Part shown: positions 12,242 to 58,037 of the stretch, in pieces
Layout of the letters: every line of letters starts with the position of its first letter
Numbering within the stretch: position 1 is the stretch's first letter
Source of the DNA: Pseudomonadaceae bacterium
Lineage (GTDB): Bacteria > Pseudomonadota > Gammaproteobacteria > Pseudomonadales > Azotimanducaceae
Reading direction: 5' to 3'
NCBI GenBank assembly: GCA_024743175.1
Contig: JANSXA010000002.1
Span: 124,001 to 188,000, forward strand
Length of the DNA: 64,000 nucleotides
Program-made: the position numbers and the translations under genes
The notes under the pieces: generated by a model
The model's input: only the letters and a program-made list of their open reading frames with translations
Database searches by the model: none
What the model was told of the DNA's origin: nothing

Positions 12242-12253
12242 TCAGTGATGTCC

Positions 12254-37907: not shown

Positions 37908-38366
37908 TCAGTCCAGCCGCACTAGATCCAATGCTGTACCCGGCGGGTAGTTGTCGGCAATCTGATACATGCCATCAACAGTGATTTCGGCCTCCAGAGT
38001 AACAGCGTCATCTTCATCGACGGTAACCGGACCGAGCTTGGCAATCGCACAGCGGTCTGTGTTCATCGGCGCGTCAAGAACAGTAAGCACAAGCCCATCG
38101 GCGCCGGCTTCCAGACCGAGTTCTGCCAAAGTAGCTTTGAGCATTCCGCCGTGGGCTTCAAACGTGACCGTGCCCTGAAATCTCATCGCTCCCGTTGCAC
38201 TGCCGTCCGGTTCAATAGACAGATCACCGCCTGGCAACGCATTGAAAACAAAGGTGCCATCGTCATTTTTGGTCGCACCGTCACTTAATGTAATGGTTCC
38301 TTCTGCGGCCTCGACGTAAGCTCTGAAGCTGGCCTTCACCCCCCAGGTTAATCTGTTGAAACTCAT
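37908..38366 (-). CDS. HtaA-type domain protein, leaderless
   Basis: A 152-residue single-domain protein. LTWGVKASFRAYVEAAEGTITLSDGA, named by ends (residues 6-31), and FQGTVTFEAHGGMLKATLAEL near residue 63-83 match the HtaA heme-binding domain of actinobacterial heme-uptake proteins. The Tyr in FRAYV and the His in EAHGG fall where heme ligands lie in HtaA. No signal peptide or anchor is present, unlike secreted HtaA proteins, so the protein is predicted cytoplasmic. GGAG lies about 7 bp upstream of the ATG. It could also be a structural relative that does not bind heme. Confidence 0.7.
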   Translation of the reverse strand: MSFNRLTWGVKASFRAYVEAAEGTITLSDGATKNDDGTFVFNALPGGDLSIEPDGSATGAMRFQGTVTFEAHGGMLKATLAELGLEAGADGLVLTVLDAPMNTDRCAIAKLGPVTVDEDDAVTLEAEITVDGMYQIADNYPPGTALDLVRLD

Positions 38367-38567
38367 AACTGCTCCGTTTAAGACAAAGCGCGAGGATGGC
38401 CCAATCAGATTGAAAATGCACCTGCATCAATAATCGAGAACACATCTGTTTTGACCAGATCTTTGTGTATTGCAAAGGTGTTCATCCCGACATTCCCATG
38501 ATGGTGCCGCCTGGGGCTTACGCACGTCTAGCGATTGCCAGGCTTTGTGCGCATGAGTTGAATCACT

Positions 38568-40313
38568 TCACGATGCTCTGGCGGCGACATAACCTTTCCA
38601 GCCGCCGAAGGCTGTAATCTCTGTCGAGCCGGTTGTTGAAAGTGGTTCAGCGATGAACCCATTGACCCAGTTGCCATCGGAAAGCTCAACTGAACCGATG
38701 CCGAGCGGTGGCAGAACCCCTTGCATAAAACTTCCTACCGTGTGTGTCGGAACCGACCACACTTCCACTTCGATAGACTGACCGTTTTCCGTATCACGGA
38801 TTAGTGCCGGGCGCTTGTTATCCGGTAGCGCGTAGAGACGGTAGTTGTCACTTGTTGTACCTCGCCGCACCAGGTAGCCGCCTCGGTCGCTCAGTTGTGC
38901 ATTCAAGGGCTGACCTTGTAGATGTGCACCGCATACTGCGAGCAGAAACTCTCCTGGACGCGCGTGCAGATCTGCACCTGGTGTCACGTCTTTGTTGCCG
39001 GCAGTAAGCGACTCGGCGAGATCCAAAAGCGCATGGTCACGCCCTGCCATGGTCACCAGCGTCACCCCGAAGGGCATACCGTCGGCTAAGTTATCTGCAG
39101 GAATCGCAATGGCGCACAAATCCAGCAGATTTACGAAATTGGTATACACACCAAGGTGGGCATTTGTGCTGAGTGGATTCTGCTGGACTTCCTCAATCAG
39201 ATAATTTGTGGGTATCGATGGCAGGACCAGAACATCGATGTCGGTAAACAGTTCTTCAGTCCGGCGGCGCAAATCCGCCAGCCTGTATTGCGCGGCAAAT
39301 GCCTCGGCTGCGCTGAAACGCGCACCACCTTCGATGATACCCAACGTTGTCGGCAGTAGGCTCTGACGATTCGAGTTCAGGAAATCTGATAGTCCCACAT
39401 AACGCTCTGCCAGCCACGGACCTTGATAAAGCAGTTCGGCAGCTTCAAAAAGAAATGCTGTCTCGCAGGTATTGGCCTGGGACAGCTGCCTCGAAAAGGA
39501 ATCATATGCGCTCTTGTGGGCTTCATCACAAGCTTGTAGCGCTACGTCGTCAAGTAGACCATAGCGTGGCTTCAAGGTATCAAAACCGCTGAAGGTAATC
39601 TGCCGTGCATAAGCATCGTTGGCATCAAAACCAGCCGCTAGATTCGCAACCATTCGCGCCTCGCCAACACTGTTGGCAAAAACAGACACACAGTCTAACG
39701 TCCGGCAGGCTGGCACAACGCCACTGGTCGACAACCAGCCACGTGTGGGTTTAAAACCAACTAAACCGTTCAATGCGGCGGGCACACGGCCAGAACCCGC
39801 GGTATCAGTCCCGAGGGAGAAACTGCAGAGCCCTAGTTTCAAAGCAACTGCGGACCCCGCGCTACTGCCACCTGAAACCATATCGGGGTTTATCGCGTTG
39901 TGTGTCGGTCCGTAAGGTGAACGCGTGCCTACAAGCCCTGTGGCAAACTGATCCAGATTAGTTTTACCAATCGGAATGGCCCCCGCATCAATGAGCCTGG
40001 CAACAACCGTGGCCGATTTGTCCGGTACATAACTGAAGTCAGGACAAGCCGCTGTTGTTGGAATACCGGCCAGATCGATATTGTCCTTGATCGCAAAAGG
40101 AACGCCCCAGAGTGGTAAAGCCTCGGAATCGATGGAGGCCAGGCGCTTGATATAAGGCTGCACTTCATCATCGCTTAGAACGTGTATCCAGGCGTTGTAT
40201 TGTCTGGTTTCAGCAATACGTTCTTTTATCTGTGAGATTACTTCTGCTGGTGTGCAGCTTTTTTCGGCATACGCGCGGCTCAATGCTGCGACATCAAGAT
40301 CCAGTACGGTCAA
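38568..40313 (-). CDS. atzF: Allophanate hydrolase
   Basis: A 581-residue enzyme that splits allophanate into ammonia and CO2. The amidase-signature domain (residues 1-440) has Lys in FAIKDNIDLAG, Ser in GGSSAGSAVAL and Ser in GTDTAGSGRVPA, the Ser-cisSer-Lys triad. The C-terminal 120 residues (LLAVCGAHLQGQPLNAQL to GWKGYVAA) are the small AtzF C-terminal domain, related to gamma-glutamylcyclotransferases. It is the last gene of the seven-gene operon, 34 bp after the carboxylase whose product it would use. Together they form the urea amidolyase pair as separate proteins, as in bacteria. Confidence 0.96.
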   Translation of the reverse strand: MTVLDLDVAALSRAYAEKSCTPAEVISQIKERIAETRQYNAWIHVLSDDEVQPYIKRLASIDSEALPLWGVPFAIKDNIDLAGIPTTAACPDFSYVPDKSATVVARLIDAGAIPIGKTNLDQFATGLVGTRSPYGPTHNAINPDMVSGGSSAGSAVALKLGLCSFSLGTDTAGSGRVPAALNGLVGFKPTRGWLSTSGVVPACRTLDCVSVFANSVGEARMVANLAAGFDANDAYARQITFSGFDTLKPRYGLLDDVALQACDEAHKSAYDSFSRQLSQANTCETAFLFEAAELLYQGPWLAERYVGLSDFLNSNRQSLLPTTLGIIEGGARFSAAEAFAAQYRLADLRRRTEELFTDIDVLVLPSIPTNYLIEEVQQNPLSTNAHLGVYTNFVNLLDLCAIAIPADNLADGMPFGVTLVTMAGRDHALLDLAESLTAGNKDVTPGADLHARPGEFLLAVCGAHLQGQPLNAQLSDRGGYLVRRGTTSDNYRLYALPDNKRPALIRDTENGQSIEVEVWSVPTHTVGSFMQGVLPPLGIGSVELSDGNWVNGFIAEPLSTTGSTEITAFGGWKGYVAARAS

Positions 40314-40347
40314 ATCTCATCTCCTTGCAATGTGCATAAATCAGCAC

Positions 40348-43300
40348 CTACTCTGGCTGCAGAACTGCCAGGGTTTGTCCTGCCTGAACCTGCTGGCCTG
40401 CACTCACCACAATTTCCAGCTGGCCCGCGAAGGGTGCACGAACCTCAAACTCCGACTTCATCGCTTCGATGACAACCAGAGTCTCGTTACCCTCAACACG
40501 CGCCATATGTTCAGCTGGCAGGGACCAGACCGAGCCACTCATCGGGCTGTCGACGGCAACGGCGCCGGGAGGCATTGCTATTGATTCAGGCGGCGTTGCC
40601 TGGCCCAGATCGGTTTCAAAGCTCAACAGGCCTTGTTCACGCCAACTTGCCAGCTCGGCATCAAAGGCGCGTTGACGCTGTTCTGTAAACGTTCGAATAC
40701 TGTCTTCTTCGCGTTGTAAAAAACCCTGGTATTCACTGGCATCAAACTGGATTGGTTGTATATCCACACAAGGTTCACCTCGCGCGAATTGCTCGCGCAT
40801 CTCAAGCAACGTCTGCGCATCAACCGGATAAAACTGCAGTTGATCAAAAGGACGTAGAAGCCACGGTTCAGAAAACGCGTCGCCACGCTTTTGGGTACTC
40901 CAGACCTGCAGGGTACGCCCAACAAACTGATAACCTCCGGGCCCTTCCATCCCGTAGATACACAAGTAGGAGCCACCAATACCCACAGAATTTTCCGCGG
41001 TCCAGGTGCGCGCCGGATTGTATTTGGTTGTGACCAGACGATGACGAGGATCCAGAGGTGTAGCCACTGGCGCACCGAGATAGACATCGCCCAGGCCCAT
41101 GACGAGGTAGCGCGCATCAAACACAATGCGTTTGACATCGTCTTTGCTTGAAAGACCGTTGATACGCCGAATGAACTCAACATTGTCCGGGCACCAGGGT
41201 GCGTCGCTGCGCACACCCTTCACATATTTATCAACCGCCTCAAGGCAAGCTGGATCTTCCCAGGACAAAGGCAGCCGAACCAGCCGGGACTCGATGACCC
41301 CATTCTCAGCTTCGGGTACCGCGTCAAGTAAAGCGTTTAACCGTTGGCGAAGTGTTACCGCACTCCATACCTGGATATCGTATCGAATCTGGAGAGAACG
41401 AATGCCTGGCGTCATTTCAACGATACCTTCGATGCCATCCGTTTCTATGAGCGTTTTGAGCGCATGAACCTTCAAATGCAATTCAACATCAAGCACTACC
41501 GGACCGAACTCGACCAGCAACCACTCCTGGCCGGCACGCCGGATCGTAATATCGCTCATCGCCAGTGCGGACGGGTTGGTTAGGGAGGCTGGGGAAAGAA
41601 TTACCGGCGATTCGCGTTTCTCAGAGGAATTGTCTTGCGGCTTGATCAGTGTTCGAACGTAGTCTTCGCGCAGGCGGCTGGCAACACCAGCGTCATCTTC
41701 CGTGGTCGCAACAAAACGGATCTGATCACCCGGCACAAGCTGCCCCAGCTTCCAACGATCGGCGTTGATAACTACAGCAGGACAAACAAATCCTCCCAGA
41801 CTGGGGCCGTCCGGACCGAGAATAACCGGCATATCACCCGTAAAATCCACGCTGCCAAAAGCGTAGGCGTTGTCGTGAATATTCGACGGATGTAAGCCAG
41901 CTTCTCCACCGTCAGGTCTGGCCCAATCAGGGTGTGGACCCGTCAACCGTACCCCGGTGCGACTGGAATTGTAGTGGACTGTCCACTGACTTGTTAAAAA
42001 GTTGTCTATGTCGCTTTCAGTGAAAAAATCCGGCGCAACGTGAGGACCTAACATCACACGAATCTGATGGCGATCCTCTAAAACAGGTTGATGAGCTGGA
42101 CTCAATTCAAATTCATTGAAAGCCTCTGCAGCACTGAGGCCCAACGGGTTTACACACAGGCCGAGCACATCACCCGTACGCAAGGCTTCGCCAGTGCAAC
42201 CGCCCATGGCGCCCAAAGTAAACGTTGCACTGGACCCGAGCTGAATCGGTGTATCAATGCCATTCTTGAACAACACATAAGCCCGCAGGCCACCGGCTAC
42301 ACTACCCAGCGACAGGGTCTGACCAGCCGCCACTTTAAACGTCTTCCAAAGTGAAACGGGCTCGCCGTCAATATCCGCCTGTATATCTGCTCCCGTAATC
42401 ACACATTGAGCCGTAGTATTGAAATGCAGACGCGGTCCATTAAGTACTATTTCAATACCGGCAGCATCAGACGGGTTTCCCAGCAGACGGTTGCCGAGAC
42501 GAAAGCTGAGGTCATCCATAGGACCCGATGGTGGCACCCCGACTGACCAGTAACCTTGTCGACCGGGAAACGACTGTATCGTACTGCTCGCACCGCCTGA
42601 GAGCACATCAATGGTTGACGCCTGATACCGCAGTTCGCCCAGCGTTGCTGTGGTCATACGTGCTTCGACGAAGGCAGGCATTTTTATGGCCTGACGTAAA
42701 TATCGGGTATTGGTCTCGATCCCGTAAATCCGCGTCGCAGCCAGTGCCTCGTCAAGTGCGACAAGGGCTTGAACACGATCCGAACCCAGAGCAATCACTT
42801 TCGCGATCATAGGATCGAATTGAAAGGGTACGCGTGCACCCGCTTGAATCCAGGTATCCACCCGGATACTCGGGTCCGGGGGAAATTCTACTTCGGTGAT
42901 TTTTCCAGGTGTTGGACGGAAATCATGGTTGGGATCTTCGGCATATACCCTGGCCTGCACAGCGTGCCCGGACGCACTGAGGCCTTCCAGTGCCTGCAGA
43001 GACTCAACATCTCCGCTGGCTTGTCTGACCATCCAGGCAACCAGATCCACGTTGTACACCAGTTCGGTTACGCCATGCTCCACCTGGAGCCGTGTATTGA
43101 CTTCGAGGAAGTAAAATTCCTCGTCGGCTGCATCATAAAGAAATTCAACGGTACCAGCGCTCTCGTAGTTTACCGACTGGAGCAACACCCGCGCCTGTTC
43201 ATGCAGGCGCTCGCGCACCTCATATGGTATGTTAGGCGCAGGACACTCTTCAATCACTTTCTGATGGCGCCGTTGCAGTGAGCAATCACGATCGCCAATG

Positions 43301-43965
43301 ATTGCAACATTGCCGCACCCATCACCAAAAGCCTGTACTTCAACATGGCGCGGCGCGCCCAGATACTTCTCCAGAAACAACTCTGCGTTACCGAAATTGC
43401 CCTTGGCCAACCGGCTGACTGCGGCAAAAGAATCTCTGAGATCCTGTTCTGAGTTACAGCGTTGCATGCCGATACCACCACCACCGGCTGTACTCTTGAG
43501 CATTACCGGATAGCCAATGGCTTCAGCAGTGGTCAGAGCCTGTTCCACATCGACCAGAATGTCACTGCCGGGAACCAGATTAACCGCAGAGGCTTGCGCT
43601 AGAAGTCTGGCTTCATGCTTCAAACCAAACTGTTTAAGGTGTGCGGGTTGCGGGCCGATAAAAGCAATGCCTTGAGTCGCAAGTCTTTCCGCGAAAGCTT
43701 CATTCTCGCTGAGAAATCCGTAACCCGGATGCACAGCCTGCGCATCGCACACTTTAATAATCGACAAGATCTTCTGCTGATTCAGGTAAGTGTCCGTGGC
43801 ACTGCCAGAACCCAGAGAATACGCCTCATCTGCGGCAGAAATATGCAGTGAATCCCGATCTTCGTCTGCGTAAACAGCAACCGATAAAGCGCCCAGATCG
43901 CGCAGCGTGCGTATGATGCGCACGGCAATAGCGCCTCTGTTTGCGACCAATACCTTGGCAAACAC
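40348..43965 (-). CDS. uca: Biotin-dependent urea/guanidine carboxylase
   Basis: A 1205-residue ATP- and biotin-dependent carboxylase. Residues 1-450 are a biotin carboxylase (FLEVNTRLQVEHGVTE; GGGGIGMQRC). Residues about 465-790 are the KipA-like part (FPGRQGYWSVGVPPSGPMDD) and about 825-1060 the KipI-like part (LGDVYLGAPVATPLDPRHRL), together the carboxyltransferase region. The C-terminus carries the biotinyl Lys1170 in EAMKSEF. In bacteria, such enzymes clustered with two associated proteins and an ABC importer have been shown to carboxylate guanidine in preference to urea. Here that context is complete, so guanidine is the likelier substrate, but the deciding residues were not assessed. 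Confidence 0.95.
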   Translation of the reverse strand: MFAKVLVANRGAIAVRIIRTLRDLGALSVAVYADEDRDSLHISAADEAYSLGSGSATDTYLNQQKILSIIKVCDAQAVHPGYGFLSENEAFAERLATQGIAFIGPQPAHLKQFGLKHEARLLAQASAVNLVPGSDILVDVEQALTTAEAIGYPVMLKSTAGGGGIGMQRCNSEQDLRDSFAAVSRLAKGNFGNAELFLEKYLGAPRHVEVQAFGDGCGNVAIIGDRDCSLQRRHQKVIEECPAPNIPYEVRERLHEQARVLLQSVNYESAGTVEFLYDAADEEFYFLEVNTRLQVEHGVTELVYNVDLVAWMVRQASGDVESLQALEGLSASGHAVQARVYAEDPNHDFRPTPGKITEVEFPPDPSIRVDTWIQAGARVPFQFDPMIAKVIALGSDRVQALVALDEALAATRIYGIETNTRYLRQAIKMPAFVEARMTTATLGELRYQASTIDVLSGGASSTIQSFPGRQGYWSVGVPPSGPMDDLSFRLGNRLLGNPSDAAGIEIVLNGPRLHFNTTAQCVITGADIQADIDGEPVSLWKTFKVAAGQTLSLGSVAGGLRAYVLFKNGIDTPIQLGSSATFTLGAMGGCTGEALRTGDVLGLCVNPLGLSAAEAFNEFELSPAHQPVLEDRHQIRVMLGPHVAPDFFTESDIDNFLTSQWTVHYNSSRTGVRLTGPHPDWARPDGGEAGLHPSNIHDNAYAFGSVDFTGDMPVILGPDGPSLGGFVCPAVVINADRWKLGQLVPGDQIRFVATTEDDAGVASRLREDYVRTLIKPQDNSSEKRESPVILSPASLTNPSALAMSDITIRRAGQEWLLVEFGPVVLDVELHLKVHALKTLIETDGIEGIVEMTPGIRSLQIRYDIQVWSAVTLRQRLNALLDAVPEAENGVIESRLVRLPLSWEDPACLEAVDKYVKGVRSDAPWCPDNVEFIRRINGLSSKDDVKRIVFDARYLVMGLGDVYLGAPVATPLDPRHRLVTTKYNPARTWTAENSVGIGGSYLCIYGMEGPGGYQFVGRTLQVWSTQKRGDAFSEPWLLRPFDQLQFYPVDAQTLLEMREQFARGEPCVDIQPIQFDASEYQGFLQREEDSIRTFTEQRQRAFDAELASWREQGLLSFETDLGQATPPESIAMPPGAVAVDSPMSGSVWSLPAEHMARVEGNETLVVIEAMKSEFEVRAPFAGQLEIVVSAGQQVQAGQTLAVLQPE

Positions 43966-43966
43966 C

Positions 43967-44611
43967 TCAGGACGCCCAGATCGCTATTTCAACGGGCGTC
44001 GGATTATAACCGTTGCAGGGATTATTTAGTTGTGGGCAGTTGGAGATGAGCAGCAGAACGTTCATATGTGCGACGAGCTCAACGTACTTTCCTGCATCAC
44101 TGATGCCATCTTCAAACGTCAGTCCACCTTGTTCGGTGACCGGAACATTCATAAAGAAATTGATATTGTGGGTAAGGTCGCGTTTGGTCAGACCCAGGTG
44201 AGCGTATTCATCGGCAATCGCAAGCAGCCAGCTGTCACGGCACGAATGCATGGTCTTTTTCTCAAGCGCATAACGAACCGTATTGCTCTCCCCTGCGCAC
44301 GCACCACCCAGGGTGTCGTGTCGACCACAGGTATCCGCCACAATCTCGAGCATTGGATTGCCTTCGTCTGAAAGCAGCACACTGTTTGTCGTGAGATACA
44401 GATTGCCTTGTTCACGAATCGTATCAAACGCGCTGTATCTCTCATGGGGGTGTTCGCTATTGAAAAACAGCGTATCAACTGCCTGGTTACCTTCGAGATC
44501 AGTAATCCGCAGCACCTCCCCTGCAGTGACCGGGTAAACCCAATAGTCACCCGCCAGAACTTTCGCCACATGACGAGCAGATGCTGTGTTCCGTTGACTT
44601 TCTTTTAACAT
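43967..44611 (-). CDS. Urea carboxylase-associated protein 2 / carboxyguanidine deiminase subunit
   Basis: A 214-residue DUF1989 protein of the UAAP2 type. Family marks are [29 protein letters not shown] (by ends) near residues 28-56, [20 protein letters not shown]-like residues near 92-110 (here [20 protein letters not shown]), and [19 protein letters not shown]. The Cys and His residues fit metal binding. With its neighbour it is expected to form the two-component deiminase that turns carboxyguanidine into allophanate and ammonia. It starts 1 bp after the first subunit ends and is followed 1 bp later by the carboxylase, so translation is tightly coupled. Confidence 0.9.
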
Positions 44612-45349
44612 CTATCCGTTTCCCAGCGCATACAGTTGTGTGTTGATCAAACCACGTCTGTTCTCGTCCCTGGAAAGCAGGCAGACATCATCATCGGTCA
44701 GCGGCTCGGCCAGGGAGAGGTGGAACTTTATGGGTTGACGTGGATAGCTTGCTGCAGTTCGCAGCGGGTGTGGGCAACTGTGCATAATCACCAGGGTGTC
44801 CATTTCGAAGCGCAAGGTAACTGCAGCACCCGGCTCAGAATTATCGTCAGCAAGTTGCATCACACCATCTGTTGATACATCTACACGACTGAACCAATTC
44901 ATGTTGGCCGCCAGATCGCGCTTACCCAGTCCATATTTCGCAAGCTCGATCAGGAAGTTGTCCCGGCCGTTGCGGATAACGTCATTACGTAGATCCTGGT
45001 AGGTGGTCGTGCCCCACTTACGTTCAACCAACGCTTTGTTACAGGTGCCGCTGGCAGCATCATGCCAGCCCACATCATCCTGAACGACCGAGCAGAAGAC
45101 TCGCCCCATATCCGAATAGAGACAATGCCCCGCAGTAATTTTGAAGGTATGCTGGCATTTCAATGAATCAGGTAAGTTTAGACGTTCTAACGGATTTCCT
45201 GGGTTATAAAGCAGCATGCCCAGGTTACCCCCACCTTGAACATCCGAAAGGGTCAGATTGACACCGCGCCTGACCAGCATCGACCAGTGACGACCACCGG
45301 GAAGCGTGTCTTCATATTCAACTGTTCGCATTTCGAATCCTAAAAACAA
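44612..45349 (-). CDS. Urea carboxylase-associated protein 1 / carboxyguanidine deiminase subunit
   Basis: A 245-residue DUF1989 protein of the UAAP1 type, paralogous to the next gene. It has LPGGRHWSMLVRRGVNLTLSD near residues 16-36, DDVGWHDAASGTCNK near 111-125 (corresponding to the Cys-His region of its partner), and LAANMNWFSRVDVSTDG. The pair is established as carboxyguanidine deiminase in bacteria that use guanidine. Placed between the ABC importer (18 bp upstream) and the partner subunit, it fits the order import, carboxylation, deimination, hydrolysis. Confidence 0.9.
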   Translation of the reverse strand: MFLGFEMRTVEYEDTLPGGRHWSMLVRRGVNLTLSDVQGGGNLGMLLYNPGNPLERLNLPDSLKCQHTFKITAGHCLYSDMGRVFCSVVQDDVGWHDAASGTCNKALVERKWGTTTYQDLRNDVIRNGRDNFLIELAKYGLGKRDLAANMNWFSRVDVSTDGVMQLADDNSEPGAAVTLRFEMDTLVIMHSCPHPLRTAASYPRQPIKFHLSLAEPLTDDDVCLLSRDENRRGLINTQLYALGNG

Positions 45350-45367
45350 TTGTTCGTCGCAACATCT

Positions 45368-46168
45368 CTAGACCATCAGTGCTTGGGTGTTCGCGTCATG
45401 GCTGCACTGTGTTTCCTGCGAATCTATTTGAGTGGTCGATTCCGTCGACAGGCTGTTCAGCCGCAGGTCGTAGGTAATGTTTGCGCCGTACAGATTTGGT
45501 GCCTGAGGGTCGACACGGGTCTTGTCGAACACCAGCAACCGCGTACCCAGCTGAAAACCTTCTGCTAAATCATGAGTAATCATGATGACGGTCAACCCGA
45601 GCTCACGATGCAGCTGCCTCACCAGGCTTTGCATATCCTTGCGTATGCCTGGGTCCAGAGCCCCAAAGGGTTCGTCCAGCAGCAGTATTTTCGGAGCTGC
45701 AATCAAAGCCTGACAAAGCGCAAGACGTTGCTGCATGCCACCGGATAATGCTGACGGATACTGATCTTTCGCATCAGTTAAACCTACCCGCTCCAGCATC
45801 TGCTGTGAGCGCTTTACCTGTTCTTTGCGCCTGGCACCAAAACTCCGGCATAGATATTTTGCATGGCTCATCTCCAATGCAAGCAGCACATTACCCAATA
45901 CTGTGAGGTGAGGAAAAACCGAATAACGCTGAAACACAATGCCTCGAGCAGACGAGGGCTCCGGCTGCAAAGCTTCACCGTCAATGTCTATGCTGCCGCG
46001 TGATGGCTGCTCTTCTCCAAGGATCATGCGCAGGAAAGTAGTTTTGCCACACCCTGATGCACCCACTATCGAGACAAAGTCGCCGTGATCGATCGATAGA
46101 TTCAGGTTTTCCAGAACGACGTTGCTGTCGTAGGATTTCCACAGATTGTGTATATCGATACGGCTCAT
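45368..46168 (-). CDS. ABC transporter ATP-binding protein (NitT/TauT type)
   Basis: A 266-residue ABC ATPase for nutrient import. The Walker A motif is GASGCGKTTF near residue 36, the signature LSGGMQQRLA near 139, Walker B LLLDEPFGALDP near 163, and the switch His is in ITHDLAEG. The last 40 residues are a poorly conserved Ser/Thr-rich tail beyond the usual nucleotide-binding domain. It overlaps the permease gene by 4 bp (ATGA). In this operon type the importer is expected to carry guanidine or a related nitrogen compound. Confidence 0.93.
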   Translation of the reverse strand: MSRIDIHNLWKSYDSNVVLENLNLSIDHGDFVSIVGASGCGKTTFLRMILGEEQPSRGSIDIDGEALQPEPSSARGIVFQRYSVFPHLTVLGNVLLALEMSHAKYLCRSFGARRKEQVKRSQQMLERVGLTDAKDQYPSALSGGMQQRLALCQALIAAPKILLLDEPFGALDPGIRKDMQSLVRQLHRELGLTVIMITHDLAEGFQLGTRLLVFDKTRVDPQAPNLYGANITYDLRLNSLSTESTTQIDSQETQCSHDANTQALMV

Positions 46169-46980
46169 TTACTCGTTCCGTACCAGGGAAACAACCAGGA
46201 TGTCATGCGGCGAAACAGGTAATCGACAGCAAACGCTAACAGTGTAATCCACATGACATAAGGAAGGATTACATCCATGGCCAGGTACCGACGCACGAGG
46301 AATATGCGATAACCAAGACCTTCTGTGGATGCGATCGCTTCGGCGGCAATCAGGAACAGCCAGGCTGCGCCTAACGATAGTCTTACGGCGTCAACCAACC
46401 GCGGCAGCACCTGAGGCAGTACGACGCGTACAATGATTTGCCAGGTATTCGCATCAAGCGTCTGCGCTTTGATCAGTTGCTCTGGGGGTAACTCACGCAC
46501 ACGCTGCTCTATGTCACGCGCAATAAAAGGCGCCGTGCCAAACACTATCAATACGTATTTCGATAGTTCACCCAAACCAAAGGTGATAAACAGTATCGGC
46601 AGTACGGCCATGGGTGGAATCATAGACAGCACCCGTACAAAGGGAGAACCCCCTGCAGCGACCCAGGGTATGAGTCCATTCAATACACCCAGCCACAATC
46701 CAAGCAGAGCACTGATCGACATACCAATGGCCAACCGCTGCAGGCTCGCTAGAGTATCCACCCACAGCAGAAACTCACCTGTTCGCTTGCTGGGTGTGAA
46801 GGCCATGCGCTGCACAGCATCAACAAAGCTGGACACACCTGGCAATAGTTTGTCGTCGGGATTCGCGGTTAAGCGGATGTCCGAAAAAACGGCGTACAGC
46901 ACAATGAGCACTACAAACGGCAGAAGCGCTATGCTGAAGTTTGCGACACGACTTGCTGGTCGTCGATTGATAATCCTCAC
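46165..46980 (-). CDS. ABC transporter permease (NitT/TauT type)
   Basis: A 271-residue inner-membrane permease with about six helices. The cytoplasmic loop that contacts the ATPase contains EQLIKAQTLDANTWQIIVRVVLP, followed by AEAIASTEGLGYRIFL, both typical of SsuC/TauC relatives. It lies 21 bp after the substrate-binding protein and overlaps the ATPase by 4 bp. A single permease gene implies a homodimer. Confidence 0.93.
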   Translation of the reverse strand: MRIINRRPASRVANFSIALLPFVVLIVLYAVFSDIRLTANPDDKLLPGVSSFVDAVQRMAFTPSKRTGEFLLWVDTLASLQRLAIGMSISALLGLWLGVLNGLIPWVAAGGSPFVRVLSMIPPMAVLPILFITFGLGELSKYVLIVFGTAPFIARDIEQRVRELPPEQLIKAQTLDANTWQIIVRVVLPQVLPRLVDAVRLSLGAAWLFLIAAEAIASTEGLGYRIFLVRRYLAMDVILPYVMWITLLAFAVDYLFRRMTSWLFPWYGTSK

Positions 46981-47001
46981 GCTGATACCCCGATACGAAC
47001 C

Positions 47002-48060
47002 CTAAAGCTCACCCCGTGCGGCCAGGTTCATATAGGTGTCATCAAAGCGCAGTTTTACATTCTGAGAGGAGCCGGAAATTTTGCCTGAGGGGTAGGCAAT
47101 TCCTACAACGCCACTGTCGGGCGCACCATCACCCAGCAAGCCATGGTCGAAGGAGAACTCGGCAACCTTTTCCATCGTCGCCTGAACAACGGGCGATCGA
47201 ACAAATTCGACGGCCGGAGCCGGGTCATAAAACATCTGTGTCGCAGCAAGTTGCGCTTCATAACCGGCAAGGTCGGTTCCGGACGCCTCAGCCATCGCGG
47301 TTTTTGCGTTCTCAGCAGCATCACCACCACTCGCCATCAGCGCCATCGTTTCATACCAGGCTCCTGTTAGCGCTTTACCCAGGCGTGGGTCAGCCCGGGC
47401 AGTTTCTGTATTTATAACCATCAGGTCGATGATCTCGCCAGGTATCATCGACGAATCGAAAACTGTGTTCGCTCCGGGCATTGATGTCACTTCGCCGAGC
47501 AAAGGATTCCACGTGACTACAGCGGTCACATCCGAACTGGTGAATGCGGCGACCATATCCGCATCAGAGGTGTTTACCACTCGAACATCGCGCTCGGACA
47601 GTCCAACCGTCGACAACGCCCGCGCCAGCACATAATGCGAAACAGACAATTCAACAAGATTCACGTTCTGGCCTTTGATATCGGCAAGGGACTGCGCGTC
47701 CTTTAAAACAATGGCATCGTTGCCGTTTGAAAAATCACCAACAATAAGTGCTGTTGAGTCGACGCCACCCGCGGCAGGAATGGTGAGCGCATCCATGTTG
47801 GTCATAGTGCATCCGTCAAATTCTCCCGCGGTATACTGATTAATCGACTCAACATAGTCGTTAAACTGAACAAGCTCGATCTCAATGCCGTACTTGGATG
47901 CCCACTTGTCTACGATGCCTGCATCCTGTGCATAACCCCATGGCATCCAACCCACGTAAATGCTCCAGGCAATCTTATAGCTGTCTTGAGCGTGCACCTG
48001 TCCGCAGAGCAGAACCGATAACGCAAGGGTAATAACAGTTACCGTTCGGTGAAATGTCAT
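47002..48060 (-). CDS. ABC transporter substrate-binding protein
   Basis: A 352-residue periplasmic binding protein with a Sec signal peptide (residues about 1-24, ending GQVHAQ). It resembles NitT/TauT binding proteins, with YVGWMPWGYAQDAGIVDKW near residue 36, GCTMTNMDALTIPAAGG near 79 and NLVELSVSHYVLARAL. It is the first gene of the operon, and its leader is about 125 nt from a predicted sigma-54 promoter. The bound compound is inferred from context to be guanidine or urea; related proteins in such operons were long labelled urea or taurine binders. Confidence 0.93.
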   Translation of the reverse strand: MTFHRTVTVITLALSVLLCGQVHAQDSYKIAWSIYVGWMPWGYAQDAGIVDKWASKYGIEIELVQFNDYVESINQYTAGEFDGCTMTNMDALTIPAAGGVDSTALIVGDFSNGNDAIVLKDAQSLADIKGQNVNLVELSVSHYVLARALSTVGLSERDVRVVNTSDADMVAAFTSSDVTAVVTWNPLLGEVTSMPGANTVFDSSMIPGEIIDLMVINTETARADPRLGKALTGAWYETMALMASGGDAAENAKTAMAEASGTDLAGYEAQLAATQMFYDPAPAVEFVRSPVVQATMEKVAEFSFDHGLLGDGAPDSGVVGIAYPSGKISGSSQNVKLRFDDTYMNLAARGEL

Positions 48061-48194
48061 AGCGCTTCCTAAATTTCAGGTAGTAAAGATGGAAACACAT
48101 TGAAGCAGCAAACCCGCTTTGCTAGCCGAGGATATTTTTCTTCTTTGGAGTCCGGCTATGCGTTCTGTGTTTTTCCACTCCTGATAAATCAACT

Positions 48195-48210
48195 AGCATT
48201 TATCGTGCCA
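48195..48210 (-). promoter_or_regulatory. Sigma-54 promoter of the guanidine/urea operon
   Basis: On the minus strand the sequence TGGCACGATAAATGCT fits the sigma-54 consensus TGGCAC-N5-TTGCW with one mismatch (A for the first T of TTGC). GG and GC are spaced exactly as required. It lies about 135 bp before the substrate-binding gene, giving a leader of roughly 125 nt. The 7-bp inverted repeat GATAAAT...ATTTATC (48183-48204) overlaps its -12 side. Confidence 0.7.
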
Positions 48211-48241
48211 CCCTGGTGCTGATGGCAAGGCAGCCAGAAAA

Positions 48242-48259
48242 GGCCCGGAGACAGGGCTC
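48242..48259 (-). terminator. Candidate terminator downstream of the small lipoprotein gene
   Basis: On the minus strand GCCC-TGTCTCC-GGGC is followed by CTTTTC. The stem is only 4-5 bp and the T-run has 4 bases, so it is weak, but it would insulate the sigma-54 promoter just downstream from transcription of the lipoprotein gene. Confidence 0.35.
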
Positions 48260-48337
48260 ATGAACATAAAACTGGAATTGGATGCAGGAAAGAACGACCC
48301 GCAGTGGGTCACAATGAACCAGAGAGCAATGCGCTGC

Positions 48338-48352
48338 GCACCGAATCAGTGC
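48338..48352. promoter_or_regulatory. NtrC enhancer-binding site
   Basis: GCACC-GAATC-AGTGC matches the NtrC site form GCACY-N5-RGTGC at every fixed position. It is about 130 bp upstream of the sigma-54 promoter, the normal distance for NtrC enhancers. The 418-bp gap 48061-48478 otherwise holds only this, the promoter, a weak hairpin and no convincing gene. Confidence 0.6.
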
Positions 48353-48478
48353 GAGCGCAGTGTTTAACGACACAGCGCTGCACGTACGGGTCCAGATAAC
48401 AGACCCGCTCTCAGTAATCATTCGATTGGCGGCCGTGACCAGTGCATCGAGCACTGCTGGCGCACCAATTTAGACGCC

Positions 48479-48712
48479 TCAGGCGCCGATCAACGCCCTC
48501 ACATGCCGTGGCGACGTACATCGACATCCAACGCTTTTGCGGCGATCGCAAACTCTCATCTGACCAGTAGGACACTCATGCGCCGCCTGACGCGCACGAT
48601 GATCAAACTGACCGGCTTGAGATAGTGCAGGATCTAAGCCGGTGCACCCTGATAGCAGTACAACCGAACCGCACAGCAACAAACGTCTACTCCAAACGTA
48701 TAGTTGAACCAT
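48479..48712 (-). CDS. Small Cys-rich lipoprotein, unknown function
   Basis: A 77-residue protein with a lipoprotein signal peptide: basic start, hydrophobic core and lipobox LLSGC, so the mature protein would begin at Cys22. The mature part is Cys-rich, with CPTGQMRVCDRRKSVGCRC, a spacing that I have the impression of seeing in small gammaproteobacterial lipoproteins. AGAGGAGA lies about 7 bp before the ATG, a strong ribosome site that supports it being real. It is separate from the guanidine operon that follows on the same strand after 418 bp. Confidence 0.6.
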   Translation of the reverse strand: MVQLYVWSRRLLLCGSVVLLSGCTGLDPALSQAGQFDHRARQAAHECPTGQMRVCDRRKSVGCRCTSPRHVRALIGA

Positions 48713-48861
48713 GTTGTATCTCCTCTCTCTCTTACAGAGTCTAGAGGAAAATACAAAAGAGTCACCTGCTTAATCTGATGGCGTGATAAGTAGCCCAAAA
48801 ACTGCTCAGCAGTCTCAAGCGGAATCCGAAGACAAGGTTGAGTCTGCTGAGCAAATCAGAT

Positions 48862-51800
48862 TTACAAGGCTACAGTTACCCCCATGTAGAAGTAACGACC
48901 GATAGGACTAACGGGGTAGGCTCGTTCAGAAACGAAGGGTTCTTCATCAGTGACATTATTCACGCCACCGAAAACCGTGTAATTTTCTTGCGAATATGAT
49001 CCGCGGAAATCATGGATGAACGTGCTCGAATCTGTAAATGCGCTGGGTCCATAGTTGGCCAGCGCAGTTTCGATTTCTGCACCATCTTCATAAGTTAACA
49101 GTTGCTTGTCCAGATACTGGGTTGTCCAACTGAACGCAAAGGGGCCTCGTACAGCTGACAGTGTTGCCAACGCTGCGTCACTGGGCCGGCGCATCTCACC
49201 GAGCTCATCGTCTACTGAGTCGGGTTCACCTGCGCCGCCTGTCTCAATAAGCTCAAGCGTTTTCACATGCGTCCAGGTCACACCGGCAGAGAAGTTAGTC
49301 TCAAACGCAGCAAAGTCGTACTGCAGAGTGATGTCATAACCTTCATAATTGGCCGAGCCAAAATTCAACTGAACCTGGCGCAGAAAATCCAGACCACCGG
49401 ACTGAGCGGAAGCTGAGTCATCGTTTCGGCTGATTAAAGGACAAAAAGAGTTATTCAGCGACGGCGAGTCATAACACCGATTCACAATATTCTGAGCTGA
49501 CACTTCAAGAATGGCATCCTCAATCTCAATTTCGATGTAATCAACGCTGAGCACGAGACCATCCAGGAATCCAGGCGTGAACACAAAGCCATAGCTTGTT
49601 GTCTCACCAGTTTCTGGAACCAGGTCCTCGTTACCACCAATCGCGCCCGGGAATCCTGCTGACAGTGGGTCTTCAAACGCATAGTTGCCTTGGCTATCGA
49701 ATATGTTTGCTGCATCTACACCATTGGCTTGAAGATCGAGGATACAGTTCGCTTCGCGCAGACCTGGATCAGCAGCGGCACCGACGTTTGCCGACGCACA
49801 GGGATCATCCGGTCTGAATCGCGCACCCTGCTCTGGTGAGAAGAGTTCAAACAGATTGGGTACACGAGTGGCTTCGCTGAAGGTATAACGGAATGTGACA
49901 TCATTAACCGGCGTCCAGACCAGGCCGTACTTATAAGTGTCGTTAGATCCAAAGACCGAGTTGTCACTGTTGCGATAGGCCAGATCAGCATAAAGCTCCT
50001 GCGCACCAGGCATATCAGAAAGTAGTGGCACGGAGACTTCCAGAAAATAGTCGAAAAAGTCGTACTCGGAGGAGCTCGGCAGCAAACGGGTTGCTGGCGC
50101 TGGTCCAAGGCTGGCGGCTTCGCTGACTGATCCCACCCAGTCACCGGCAGAAAAAGCCAGCCCTTCTGAAGTGATACCAGACACTGGCAGGATGCCCTGG
50201 TCGAAACGACCAAAGTCCTGACTGGTCTTTTCTTCCCGATATTCCAGGCCAACCACCAGGCCGATGGGCCCTGCGGGCAACTCAAACCAGGGTGAAGAAT
50301 CGCCTGAAATGAAACCGGAAAATACCGTTTGTTCAATGGTCTCGCTGACTTCTCGGTCGTAAGTTACAAAGTCGATGGACTCCTGCGACATGGCGCGTCT
50401 TCCGCCCCAGATGTCCATTGGCTGACACTGGCCATCACCTGGCGTGAAGGTAAAGAAAGAAGAATCCACACCACCACCCACAAACTGAAAGATGTTGAAC
50501 GGTGTTGTGTGCGGATACGCCGTCGAATCCAGGTCAGAGCGGCACACTGCCTCACCTGTTACCGGGTCAGCTACCGCATCTATCGCTGCAAAAAAGCGGT
50601 CCGCAATCATCTCTTCCCGGTCCACCATGTCCCGCTGGAACTTGCCATAGTTGCCGCTGATCTCGTAGCTGAAGACGTCATTAAAAGCGCCTTCCAGACC
50701 CAACACAAAACGCATCGTCTCCCGCTCGTTAGTGGTTACGTTAGAGCCCCAGTCGTCTGCATCTCGAGATATGTGCAGACCGCCGTCTATACCTGCAAAG
50801 CCAAGGCCTGAGTTGTTTATAAATGCAGAGAGCTCATCAGGTAAGAACGGGTTATCCGGCGCACCGTAAAGCAAGTCGGTAAAGTTGTGATATTGCTCAA
50901 CAGCCTCAATTTCCTGATAAATATATTTTGACTCCCAGAAGACTGACATCTGTTCTGTAATATCGAAGTGTCCGTTGACGTCTATAGACCACTGCTTGCG
51001 CTCAGGTATCGCTGAGGTTCTATTCGGGCGTATGTAACTCTGATCTGCACCAAACTGGTTAAAAGATCCTGCCACAAGACCATCTTCGTAAGGCACAAGG
51101 TTACCGTCTGCATCAATTGCCCAGCACCCACCGGCAATACCAAACGAACCAGCGCCATCCAACGAACTGTTATAGCCGTTAAAACTCTGCAGACAGTCAG
51201 TGGTGCCATCACCATCTAAATCCGGTTCCGAACCGAGGGGGAATTCAACCCCGAAATCACCTATAGCCACGACGCCGTAGGGTGACGTGATGTTAAATGT
51301 ACGGCCTTGCAGAATAGCCCGAGGAAACGCGTTTGCACCACGGTCCAACAAATCCAGCTCTGCCTGCGTCAACGTCGGAGCAACCCCGAATTCGGCGGTG
51401 TAATCTGCAATAAACGTGTCAGCGGAGGGAATACGCAAGCCCCAGGGAAATAATCCTGTGGTGTCAAAATCATAGTAAGCAGAAAAATTTGGCGTATTTG
51501 AAGGTGCCAGATCACCAATCTGAAAACGCAATGCGGGGTTAGCATCATCATCAAAAAGACCATTCTGCGCTAAAAAGTCCCGGTCACCCAGGTCCAATCC
51601 GGTATCGTTTTCGTACTGCAAAGCGAAAGTCACATTGCCGCGCCCGGATGCAAAATTACGCCCACCAACAACAGAAAACTTTCCGGCGGAGTTATCCCCC
51701 TGGTCAGCTGTACCGCCCTGCAGGGAAAACTCCAGCCCTTCAAAGTTGTCTTTGAGAATAATGTTCACAACACCTGTCACCGCGTCTGACCCGTAGACCG

Positions 51801-52305
51801 CCGATGCACCGCCGGACAGAACATCAATTCGCTCAATCAGGGCAGTGGGAATTGTACTGATATCAACTGCAGCTGTGCCTTCAATACCCGAAACGTGGCG
51901 TCTGCCGTTGACCAGAGTCAGCGTACGTTTATCACCCAGCCCACGCAGATCAAGACTGGATCCGCCAAAATTCTGCGTACTGGCTTGATCAAGGTTTGAT
52001 GCCACACCATCCAGCGAATTGGTCGATGAGACACTGTTTAAGAGCGGTGGCGCATCATTCAGAATCTCACTCAAGTCAAATTGCCCACCCTGAGAAATCA
52101 CTTCCTCACCCACGCTTGTCACCGGTTGCGACGAATTGGCATTCGACTTGATTCGCGTCCCCGTGACCACAACTTCTTCTATTGCCGCACCGTCTGTCGC
52201 TGCGTCTTCAGCTGCAGCGTATGCAGGGCTAAGGCCCAGCAACACATAACAAACCCACAAACACAATCTGGCTGTCAGAGTGCGCCTTTTTGTAATATCA
52301 CTCAT
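48862..52305 (-). CDS. TonB-dependent receptor
   Basis: A 1147-residue outer-membrane receptor with a signal peptide (cleavage near AYAAAED). A TonB box-like segment IEEVVVTGTRIK is near residue 35, then the plug domain (ILNDAPPLLNSV..LRGLGDKRTLTLVNGRRHV and ERIDVLSGGASAVYGSDAVTGVVNIILK, by ends), then a long beta-barrel ending in the aromatic YFYMGVTVAL. The length, about 1150, and many Asp/Gly-rich loops suggest a large-substrate receptor of the kind common in marine bacteria. The start at 52305 is chosen over an upstream Met because AGGGAT precedes it and it gives the signal peptide directly. Substrate unknown. Confidence 0.94.
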   Translation of the reverse strand: MSDITKRRTLTARLCLWVCYVLLGLSPAYAAAEDAATDGAAIEEVVVTGTRIKSNANSSQPVTSVGEEVISQGGQFDLSEILNDAPPLLNSVSSTNSLDGVASNLDQASTQNFGGSSLDLRGLGDKRTLTLVNGRRHVSGIEGTAAVDISTIPTALIERIDVLSGGASAVYGSDAVTGVVNIILKDNFEGLEFSLQGGTADQGDNSAGKFSVVGGRNFASGRGNVTFALQYENDTGLDLGDRDFLAQNGLFDDDANPALRFQIGDLAPSNTPNFSAYYDFDTTGLFPWGLRIPSADTFIADYTAEFGVAPTLTQAELDLLDRGANAFPRAILQGRTFNITSPYGVVAIGDFGVEFPLGSEPDLDGDGTTDCLQSFNGYNSSLDGAGSFGIAGGCWAIDADGNLVPYEDGLVAGSFNQFGADQSYIRPNRTSAIPERKQWSIDVNGHFDITEQMSVFWESKYIYQEIEAVEQYHNFTDLLYGAPDNPFLPDELSAFINNSGLGFAGIDGGLHISRDADDWGSNVTTNERETMRFVLGLEGAFNDVFSYEISGNYGKFQRDMVDREEMIADRFFAAIDAVADPVTGEAVCRSDLDSTAYPHTTPFNIFQFVGGGVDSSFFTFTPGDGQCQPMDIWGGRRAMSQESIDFVTYDREVSETIEQTVFSGFISGDSSPWFELPAGPIGLVVGLEYREEKTSQDFGRFDQGILPVSGITSEGLAFSAGDWVGSVSEAASLGPAPATRLLPSSSEYDFFDYFLEVSVPLLSDMPGAQELYADLAYRNSDNSVFGSNDTYKYGLVWTPVNDVTFRYTFSEATRVPNLFELFSPEQGARFRPDDPCASANVGAAADPGLREANCILDLQANGVDAANIFDSQGNYAFEDPLSAGFPGAIGGNEDLVPETGETTSYGFVFTPGFLDGLVLSVDYIEIEIEDAILEVSAQNIVNRCYDSPSLNNSFCPLISRNDDSASAQSGGLDFLRQVQLNFGSANYEGYDITLQYDFAAFETNFSAGVTWTHVKTLELIETGGAGEPDSVDDELGEMRRPSDAALATLSAVRGPFAFSWTTQYLDKQLLTYEDGAEIETALANYGPSAFTDSSTFIHDFRGSYSQENYTVFGGVNNVTDEEPFVSERAYPVSPIGRYFYMGVTVAL

Positions 52306-52718
52306 GTTGTATATCCCTAACTGGCTACTTCTTTTTATAAGAATTAAATATCGGACCCAAGCCAACTAGCAAAATGGATGCCAAGTTTGAGAAGCCGCGA
52401 GAAACAAACGTTTCGAGCAGTGCGCCAGGTTAAAGGCGCACTTTCTTGGGGATTTACGGACAGCGAGAAGATCATTTTTGGGCATTTCTAACAGGTCAGA
52501 AATGGGGCGCGGCCAATAAACGCACCAAAATGGAATTCTGAAGGCACCAACAAGAATTCTTTGCCCTCTCCTATTTAGAGCGTTCGACAAGTTTTTGCAT
52601 CGCATTGGTGCAACATACGTATCAGAAATTGCACTGATACCCGCCATACCTTCTTAACAAGCCGTCGTAACGAACCCACTGGCGCGAAAGACCCCTTTGG
52701 CATCGTTCTTGTATAGCA
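52306..52718. other. 413-bp intergenic region with an inverted repeat
   Basis: The gap separates divergent genes for the TonB receptor and the HupE-like protein, so it should hold promoters for both. It contains TGCGCC-AGGTTAAA-GGCGCA at 52421-52440, a perfect 6-bp inverted repeat with an 8-nt loop, lying in the expected leader or promoter region of the TonB receptor. A 93-codon open frame on the minus strand has no coding character. I see no other feature. Confidence 0.4.
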
Positions 52719-55983: not shown

Positions 55984-57072
55984 ATGTCACAACCGAGACT
56001 ATTCATACTCGCGCTGACCACAGCGATTACCGCAATCTGCGCGCCTGGCCATTCAGCTGCCATGAATGATTCAGAGATTATCAAGCAGAACCTTGCAACT
56101 GCGGAAGACATGATCGATGCATTCTATTCTTTCGACCCGGAGCAGCTGAGCCAGTTTCTTACCCACGCGGAACAATCGGCGAAATCGATTCTCTACTATC
56201 AAGGCTGGGCTGAAGGGGGCAACTACAAAATTGTTAAACGCGGGGCGTGCAAACCCACTTCGAACCAACAGATCAGCTGCGCAATAACCGTCGAGGATGA
56301 CCCGGTAATGGCATTGCAGACAGACTTTAAGGTAACAGACACCTTTACCCTGACTTTTGAGGGGACCCATATTACCGCGATTGAGACAAGCTCCAATGAT
56401 CAGCCTGTTTACTACGAAGCGCGGGACTGGGTGCTTGAGAATATGCCGGAAATCATGGACGGACCGTGTCAGGGTTTCTTCGATGGCGGATCAACCCCAG
56501 GTGATTGCGCCCGCGCCATGACTGAGGGTTATCGACAGTTTTATGCCGCGCAAAAAGCTCAGAGTCCAATCGAACCTGCAGATACAGACTCCGCTTCATT
56601 TATCCCTGACGATTTCTCTCCACCGGTTCTGGTAGAAGGCAATAACTTCAAACTCGTGCCTCTGGGACCGGAGTTAGTGAAAATCGACTACGACGCCTAT
56701 ATGTCCTCAATAGAACACCTGCAAAAAACATTTACCCGCAGTACCAGTTGGCCAACAACAGGTATAACAGACGAAGATGCCATGCAGGATATGCTCAACG
56801 AACAACGCCGCTTCCAGAATCGTGAATCTTTTGCCTATGCGGTGCTGACACCCGATGGCAAGCGGGAACGCGGCTGCATCTATGTGCAACCAAGTACTGC
56901 CGCCGGCTTTGATGCGGTTGTGAAGATGTGGGTCACCCAGTCAGAGTATGATGCCGGCTTTGATGCAGAGCTTTATGCGTGGGCCACCCAGTGGATCAGT
57001 GAAGAATGGCCGTTCGAGCAGGTTGCTTACCCGGGGCGCGCAATCGCGTGGGACGAATGGGATTCACTCTAA
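55984..57072 (+). CDS. Exported NTF2-like and GNAT-like fusion protein
   Basis: A 362-residue protein. The start at 55984 is preferred, since it gives a clear signal peptide (about residues 1-26, to HSAA), with AGGGG upstream. Residues about 30-200 form an NTF2-like domain (FYSFDPEQL, ILYYQGWAEGGNYK, DDPVMALQTDF, NDQPVYYEARDWV, STPGDCARAMTEGYR). Residues about 215-362 (FKLVPLGPELVKIDYDAYMSS, NREAFAYAVLTPDGKR-like, RGCIYVQPS, EEWPFEQV) resemble a GNAT-type acetyltransferase domain. The combination with a secretion signal is unusual, because GNAT enzymes need cytoplasmic acetyl-CoA. It is the fourth gene of the HupE/MBL operon and ends 4 bp into its convergent paralogue. Confidence 0.75.
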   Translation: MSQPRLFILALTTAITAICAPGHSAAMNDSEIIKQNLATAEDMIDAFYSFDPEQLSQFLTHAEQSAKSILYYQGWAEGGNYKIVKRGACKPTSNQQISCAITVEDDPVMALQTDFKVTDTFTLTFEGTHITAIETSSNDQPVYYEARDWVLENMPEIMDGPCQGFFDGGSTPGDCARAMTEGYRQFYAAQKAQSPIEPADTDSASFIPDDFSPPVLVEGNNFKLVPLGPELVKIDYDAYMSSIEHLQKTFTRSTSWPTTGITDEDAMQDMLNEQRRFQNRESFAYAVLTPDGKRERGCIYVQPSTAAGFDAVVKMWVTQSEYDAGFDAELYAWATQWISEEWPFEQVAYPGRAIAWDEWDSL

Positions 57073-57656
57073 AGTGAGTACGCGTCGCTGGCCGCAAAAC
57101 GACGGTAACCTTCCGTCATGGCGCGGGCACAGTCACCTGGCGTAGAGCCAGCGGTGCCACGATCCTTGCAGGGGCCTGCCATTACCTCAGGCATTTCGCG
57201 CTCAACCCATGCACGCGCTTCATAGTAGATAGGTTGGTCATTGGAACTGGTTTCCACCTTTACGATCTCCCCGTTGGCAAAGGTGAGGGTAAACGTATCG
57301 GTGACGTTGAACCCGGTATTCAATGCCATGACGGGATCATCCTGCACGGTTATAGGGCAACTGATCAATTTGTTCTCATCAACGGCACACGCACCACGTT
57401 CTAATACTTTGTAGTTACCCCCTTCTGCCCAACCCTGGTAATACAGAATAGATTGCGCAGATTCGGGTGCAGCCATCAACATCGGGCGCAGCCGCTCAGG
57501 GTCAAATGAATAGAAGGCATCGATAAACGCCTCCGCCTTAGAAAGATTGGGAGCCTGAGCATCTGAGGTTTCAACCGTTGCCAGCGGCTCTGACGTATCA
57601 GTGCACGCTCCCAACAGTATAAGTAAGATCGAACCGGCAGCGAAGCGTGCGAACAT
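57069..57656 (-). CDS. NTF2-like lipoprotein, paralogue of the convergent gene
   Basis: A 195-residue lipoprotein (lipobox LLGAC, mature Cys18) that matches the N-terminal half of the facing gene almost residue by residue: FIDAFYSFDPE, SILYYQGWAEGGNYK, DDPVMAL, VTDTFTLTF, ETSSNDQP, YYEAR and GSTPGDCARAMTEGYR. Two Cys residues in PCKDRGTAGSTPGDC and the pair CAVDENKLISC may form disulfides. It lacks the GNAT-like part. The stops overlap by 4 bp in a tail-to-tail arrangement, so the pair is an inverted duplication. Function unknown. Confidence 0.8.
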   Translation of the reverse strand: MFARFAAGSILLILLGACTDTSEPLATVETSDAQAPNLSKAEAFIDAFYSFDPERLRPMLMAAPESAQSILYYQGWAEGGNYKVLERGACAVDENKLISCPITVQDDPVMALNTGFNVTDTFTLTFANGEIVKVETSSNDQPIYYEARAWVEREMPEVMAGPCKDRGTAGSTPGDCARAMTEGYRRFAASDAYSL

Positions 57657-58037
57657 ATGTTGAATCCTGTGTCTGGTTAATGGGTATTGTGAGATTCAGG
57701 GGTCGGTTAGTTTTTATTTGTGAACACTCGCTCATCCACCTCATTTTTTACCTGTCGCCCTCTCCTCTCCTAGGAGTACGAGCAAGATTTATGCCACGAA
57801 GTTAACACCCATCAATACAACCTGACTTGCGGTGTCCCACGTTACGAGCAACGCCCTGGAAGTGCAAAAATAGCGCATGCTGGTACCTGCAAGCCCCAGA
57901 AGTGGGCGATGCAATTCGGTGACAAACGTAGCAACGCAAACGAGAAATGGTGGCTCAAGCCAGTGTGTACCTGAATAGCGCCATCTGGCATGGATCCTGC
58001 TGTCCACAGATGCACTTTGAAACAGTTTAGGAATCAC
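57657..58037. other. 381-bp intergenic region
   Basis: The gap between the NTF2-like lipoprotein and the Rieske oxygenase holds promoters for both. A 10-bp perfect palindrome CTCCTAGGAG lies at 57767-57776. An 82-codon minus-strand frame here has no coding character. I see no RNA gene or repeat. Confidence 0.3.

Follow-up and report, generated by a model that had tools for sequence, protein, structure and literature searches.

An operon for guanidine assimilation with predicted NtrC/sigma-54 nitrogen control and without a recognisable guanidine riboswitch

Operons for guanidine assimilation built around a guanidine carboxylase and preceded by a guanidine-I riboswitch have been described in Vreelandella boliviensis (PMC12508155) and in Raoultella and Klebsiella (PMC12186494). 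The guanidine-I class permits transcription only with guanidine (PMC11410670). In Burkholderia cenocepacia, the urea carboxylase gene BCAS0272 was reported to be 6.0-fold down in an ntrC mutant, and BCAS0269 and BCAS0271 were without reads (PMC5491218). In a survey of sigma-54 promoters, 102 COG3665 genes were assigned to the predicted regulon (PMC12316311). The operon type, its riboswitch, and the NtrC control of one homologue are already known. Here, an operon of this type was analyzed in a 64,000-nucleotide stretch of the genome of a gammaproteobacterium of the Azotimanducaceae (assembly GCA_024743175.1, contig JANSXA010000002.1); the whole stretch is referred to below as the window. The explanation that, taken as a whole, is probably correct is that this guanidine operon is under NtrC/sigma-54 control by nitrogen shortage and that the guanidine step of the control is missing.

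The region upstream of the first gene (Table 1) contains a sigma-54 type −24/−12 site, TGGCACGATAAATGCT, in which the GG and GC are intact and separated by 10 bases; the only mismatch is a T to A change within the −12 box. The transcript start predicted from this site is 48184, which gives a leader of 124 nt. The centre of the NtrC-type palindrome is located 149 bp from the GC of the −12 box. All three elements of the original prediction, namely, a sigma-54 site with one mismatch, an NtrC site, and a normal enhancer distance between them, were recovered. Among 20,000 dinucleotide shuffles of the region 48061–48480, 156 contained a sigma-54 site with at least 11 matches and 54 a perfect NtrC site, and none contained both at a spacing of 60–250. 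Either site alone could arise by chance, whereas both at normal spacing are beyond chance.

The trans-acting proteins needed for such a promoter are encoded in the same genome: RpoN in one copy (PF04552, 226.4 bits) and NtrC (TIGR01818, 717.9 bits vs. a cut-off of 558.6). A search of the genome with the NtrC pattern gave 28 places, compared with 13 for a reversed control pattern, so about half of these places may be due to chance. Only 2 of the 28, one of them being the operon, have a correctly oriented sigma-54 site (at least 11/12) within 320 bp downstream. The other place at which a perfect NtrC pattern is combined with a sigma-54 site (12/12) at normal distance (L025, G000:C4:63611-63700) precedes an ORF encoding a lipoprotein-like protein of 94 aa. 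A looser sigma-54 pattern, TGGCAYNNNNNWTGCW, occurs at 41 places (10 for the control). When 30 of these 41 loci were examined, a perfect NtrC site was found only at the window operon and before the 94-aa ORF, and the NtrC sites of this genome therefore helped little in listing known targets. Near ntrC, a sigma-54 site accompanied by two NtrC-like sites, each with two mismatches, belongs to a glutamine-synthetase-like ORF.

A guanidine riboswitch was not detected. The Rfam search at the gathering threshold gave no matches across the 64 kb of the window, and lowering the threshold to an E-value of 10 in the region 48000–48870 gave two matches, neither of them to a guanidine family; guanidine-IV, which was covered by these Rfam scans of the window only, was not among the matches. 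In the assembly as a whole, no matches were found for RF00442 (100 of 186 first-look candidates scored), RF01068 (150 of 231), or RF01763 (150 of 546), and the replacement of guanidine-I by guanidine-II or -III was rejected on the last two of these results. The same Rfam search found guanidine-I upstream of the binding-protein gene in 9 of 13 relatives, which indicates that the method works on such operons; RF00442 matches were present in 8 of the 25 genomes chosen for that search. In addition, an aptamer model was built from nine guanidine-I relatives and run with filters off over the region 38000–52500. Its best score was 5.3 bits (E-value 2.4), given by a fragment upstream of the predicted transcript start; matches in the relatives scored 45.9–112.1 bits. 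The conserved aptamer blocks of the relatives are not present in the window leader, and a decayed aptamer was rejected because the model scored no more than 5.3 bits anywhere in the region 38000–52500. Both approaches thus agree with the original prediction in finding no guanidine riboswitch in the leader.

The relation between promoter and aptamer was then analyzed in related operons. The named set was limited to the best 80 of at least 578 loci encoding a relative, one of which (L042) is without upstream sequence; the family loci come from 30 of the 31 other genomes with a match (G159 had no locus), and the two sets overlap. After the removal of near-duplicates, short sequences, and L042, 117 loci gave 102 distinct regions, 85 with an aptamer and 17 without, each comprising the 300 bases that precede the aptamer or, if none was found, the matched start of the binding-protein gene. 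Sigma-54 sites with at least 10, at least 11, and all 12 consensus positions were present in 66, 51, and 12 of the 85 aptamer regions (shuffle means 2.9, 0.5, and 0.03). For the first of these counts the maximum among 30 shuffle sets was 8, and the opposite strand gave 4. In the 17 aptamer-less regions, the window included, the corresponding counts were 12, 7, and 4 (shuffle means 0.5, 0, and 0). NtrC sites with at most one mismatch were found in 42 of the 85 aptamer regions (shuffle mean 3.6, maximum 9) and in 10 of the 17 aptamer-less ones (0.9). With the window left out, 11 of the 16 aptamer-less regions have a sigma-54 site (at least 10/12) and 9 an NtrC site (at most one mismatch).

Since site and aptamer usually occur together, nitrogen control appears to be the rule in these operons, and the window is special only in its missing aptamer. 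The original prediction that the sigma-54 promoter stands there instead of a riboswitch needs correction, as the one usually does not replace the other. In most of these operons, sigma-54 promoter and riboswitch look like successive stages of a single control, the aptamer lying within the transcript expected from the sigma-54 site. Their arrangement differs between groups. In the alphaproteobacterial relatives (12 distinct regions), 4–12 bases separate the end of the 16-base site from the aptamer, which would therefore begin approximately at the transcript start, and no NtrC match with at most one mismatch is present; in gammaproteobacterial regions, the gap is mostly 30–80 bases. In the relatives, the distances between NtrC-like and sigma-54 sites are clustered with a periodicity of about 11 bp (R 0.55 without the window; 51 distances from sequences that are not independent; the best of four periods). 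In one locus (L145, genome G241, 11360–13580), an insert of about 2.2 kb separates the permease and ATPase genes. A guanidine-I aptamer with its own 12/12 sigma-54 site closes this insert and lies within the operon, ahead of the ATPase gene; at the first gene of that operon, the promoter has sigma-54 and NtrC sites and no aptamer.

According to the proposed mechanism, NtrC would bind the palindrome when nitrogen is short and activate the sigma-54 polymerase at the promoter site, with the transcript starting near 48184. In most relatives, a promoter of the same kind is followed by the guanidine-I aptamer, which would let the transcript continue only if guanidine is bound, so that both conditions would be needed. 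In the window, where the aptamer was lost or was never acquired, a shortage of nitrogen should be sufficient to switch the operon on. From the observed genes, sites, spacing, lack of a recognisable aptamer, and joint occurrence of site and aptamer among relatives, we infer that the site would be used, that NtrC would be the acting activator, that guanidine would no longer be needed, and that the absence of the aptamer would represent a loss. The original prediction of a switch by nitrogen starvation rather than by the ligand gains in its first part from the presence of RpoN and NtrC in the genome and of a homologous operon in the measured B. cenocepacia NtrC regulon; as for its second part, it can fairly be inferred from the sequence that expression of the window operon no longer depends on guanidine.

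Several points weigh against this reading. The sigma-54 score is based on a simple 12-position consensus, not on a trained matrix. There is only one mismatch-free NtrC site at the operon, and its 149-bp distance is in phase with the sites of the relatives at a period of 10.5 bp and off by 2.6, a quarter turn, at 11.0 bp, which is the better-fitting period. Among the aptamer regions, 19 of 85 have no sigma-54 site with at least 10/12 positions and 43 of 85 no NtrC site with at most one mismatch, the alphaproteobacterial ones included. The genome contains ten NtrC-family matches that cover the central domain, and an activator other than NtrC is therefore possible. Finally, 15 of the 30 other members of the window's own family that were examined are without an upstream aptamer.

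The last point also bears on the origin of the aptamer-less state. An aptamer is located upstream in 77 of the 79 named loci with upstream sequence (from the best 80). Of the 15 aptamer-less family members, 11 have a sigma-54 site (at least 10/12) and four, all of genus g8, do not. A quick tree was constructed for 107 binding proteins (the 117 minus L004, L042, L137, L138, and six duplicates); on this tree, which is in effect unrooted and contains weak forks as well as some long branches, the aptamer label requires nine changes, three of them forced by well-supported branches. The window sequence grouped with five others (SH-aLRT 94), four of which are aptamer-bearing. Repeated loss of the aptamer thus seems likelier than late gain, and the window would be one such case; with 15 of the 30 other family members aptamer-less, however, this is a matter of likelihood and not of proof.

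Other explanations of the upstream region were considered. Consensus matches by themselves prove nothing, and both sites could be accidental, with transcription of the operon coming from a promoter that escaped notice or running on from the TonB receptor gene, which has the same orientation and ends about 800 bp upstream. With no shuffle reproducing the pair at normal spacing, the same layout of sites in relatives, and no sigma-70-like promoter in a simple scan of the region 47950–48900, this is very improbable. It is easier to imagine, although still unlikely, that an RNA element beyond the reach of current models, such as a heavily altered aptamer or one of a new class, still lets the leader sense guanidine or a similar compound. 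The predicted 124 nt would be long enough for an aptamer, and the predicted fold has three helices within a closing stem. The leader also contains a weak terminator-like hairpin (48119–48103; two such matches in the region vs. 0.9 in shuffles). The z-score of this fold is just −1.37, however, and the model built from close relatives finds nothing in the leader. Alignment of the window leader with that of L002 gave no useful match across its length. A new structured leader RNA was rejected because equally good folds were obtained from 17 of 200 shuffles. About as doubtful is the use of the sigma-54 promoter by another activator, perhaps a sensor of a guanidino compound, for which the ten NtrC-family matches provide candidates and which would accord with the alphaproteobacterial relatives that keep the sigma-54 site without an NtrC match. 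Against it stand the perfect palindrome at the usual distance, the NtrC-like sites in 9 of the 16 other aptamer-less regions, and the NtrC dependence of the homologous B. cenocepacia operon (PMC5491218).

The remaining explanation concerns the substrate: an operon for urea, not guanidine, would account for the missing riboswitch. Family names in the profile libraries say urea. In the window carboxylase, Asp707 aligns with Asn1330 of the Kluyveromyces urea amidolyase 5i8i (the yeast urea carboxylase has Asn), which we take to be the specificity position meant by the Asp/Asn rule. According to this rule, Asp marks guanidine carboxylases and Asn urea carboxylases, and carboxylases without a riboswitch are described as mostly predicted to be urea-specific (PMC12186494). 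Asp is kept in all 14 carboxylases found across 16 stretches taken from relatives; nine of the 14 belong to operons without an upstream aptamer, and these are all the carboxylases in the fetched regions of the family's other aptamer-less operons. The missing riboswitch does not, therefore, mean a urea enzyme here. Urea specificity was rejected on Asp707, and, as both UAAP genes are also present in the operon, a urea operon is highly unlikely. A possible misreading is thereby corrected, as a missing riboswitch alone is no proof of a urea-type carboxylase.

The window lies in a contig of 658,920 bases (C14) of an assembly of 4.72 Mb (18 contigs, rated 98% complete). The operon consists of seven closely spaced genes on the minus strand, from 48060 to 38568 (Table 1). 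The carboxylase, both UAAP subunits, and the allophanate hydrolase that define the pathway stand together in it, the deiminase role of UAAP1 and UAAP2 being taken from the literature; for the permease and ATPase, no equivalog cut-off was passed among the matches listed. Homologous operons with the same gene order, complete or partial, were found in the 16 stretches, with some exceptions: some end at contig edges or carry part of the set (L143, L151, L157), the hydrolase gene is on the opposite strand in L150, and the gene order is interrupted in L145 and L157. As judged from its sequence, the locus is a guanidine-assimilation operon encoding an importer, guanidine carboxylase, carboxyguanidine deiminase, and allophanate hydrolase. 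The seven-gene set originally predicted is thus confirmed by TIGR family matches above cut-off for five genes and by the operon order.

Table 1. Coordinates of the operon genes and predicted regulatory features in the window
Feature	Coordinates	Strand	Basis
Sigma-54 type −24/−12 promoter, TGGCACGATAAATGCT	48195..48210 (48210 to 48195)	-	11/12 consensus positions
NtrC-type palindrome GCACC-N5-AGTGC, probable enhancer	48338..48352	.	0 mismatches to GCACYNNNNNRGTGC
Predicted 124-nt leader without recognisable aptamer	48061..48184	-	5' end predicted; no match to Rfam or to the model built here
ABC substrate-binding protein, carboxylase-linked transporter	47002..48060	-	TIGR03427, 560.7 bits vs. 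cut-off 333.9
ABC permease	46165..46980	-	Orthologues in relatives, order conserved
ABC ATPase	45368..46168	-	Orthologues in relatives, order conserved
UAAP1, one carboxyguanidine deiminase subunit	44612..45349	-	TIGR03425, 303.5 bits vs. cut-off 205.95
UAAP2, other carboxyguanidine deiminase subunit	43967..44611	-	TIGR03424, 318.2 bits vs. cut-off 284.7
Guanidine (formerly urea) carboxylase	40348..43965	-	TIGR02712, 1665.5 bits vs. cut-off 1303.85; Asp707
Allophanate hydrolase	38568..40313	-	TIGR02713, 689.3 bits vs. cut-off 511.05

The window carboxylase shows 61–62% identity with carboxylases from the family's other genera and 51% with those of two genomes of the same genus (compared loci: L154, L155, L142, L152, L153, and L156). 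This pattern hints at operon exchange or at separate operon lineages. The binding-protein gene of L002 (G045:C59) contains an in-frame TGA near its start, which is either a sequencing error or the sign of a broken gene. The TonB-dependent receptor gene (48862–52305, minus strand) just upstream of the operon has a sigma-54-like site of its own, TGGCATCCATTTTGCT, at 52368–52383 (minus strand), some 63 bases upstream of the probable ATG. A homologue of this receptor with 60% identity is encoded near the guanidine operon of L150, the only such case among 96 loci searched. A further sigma-54-like site, TGGCATAAATCTTGCT (57781–57796, minus strand), precedes an ORF encoding a protein of 195 aa (57069–57656, minus strand) without Pfam or NCBIfam matches.

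On a wider scale, we lean slightly towards the view that many proteobacterial guanidine operons are AND gates, in which the transcript from a sigma-54 promoter (in gammaproteobacteria mostly one with NtrC) starts shortly ahead of the guanidine-I aptamer, and that several lineages, that of the window included, dropped the sensor and kept the starvation switch. Such nesting would make the response strictly dependent on two signals, and what the riboswitch contributes could be judged against the aptamer-less operons as natural controls. If the view is correct, aptamer-less lineages are natural aptamer-deletion mutants, which would take up guanidine and spend ATP whenever nitrogen is short. The literature treats it as unsettled whether guanidine is a poison or a food for bacteria (PMC12186494); a starvation promoter ahead of the riboswitch suggests that guanidine is treated as food in these operons. 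No paper joining the guanidine-I riboswitch and the sigma-54 promoter as nested control was found in a search that did not cover subscription literature, and priority is not claimed.

Compared with the described systems, the window operon has the importer, carboxylase, deiminase, hydrolase, and Asp residue of the guanidine-I carboxylase operons of V. boliviensis (PMC12508155) and of Raoultella and Klebsiella (PMC12186494), and differs from them in that the guanidine-I aptamer is missing from its leader and, to the extent of the search, from the whole genome. No link of the predicted sigma-54 regulon of COG3665 genes to guanidine or the riboswitch was seen in the survey, in whose main text “guanidin” occurs 0 times (PMC12316311). 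The closest parallel in regulation is BCAS0269–0272 of B. cenocepacia H111, an operon of the same kind that is lowered in the ntrC mutant under nitrogen limitation, in a study whose main text does not contain the word “riboswitch” (PMC5491218); NtrC control has been measured for that operon and is predicted for the one in the window.

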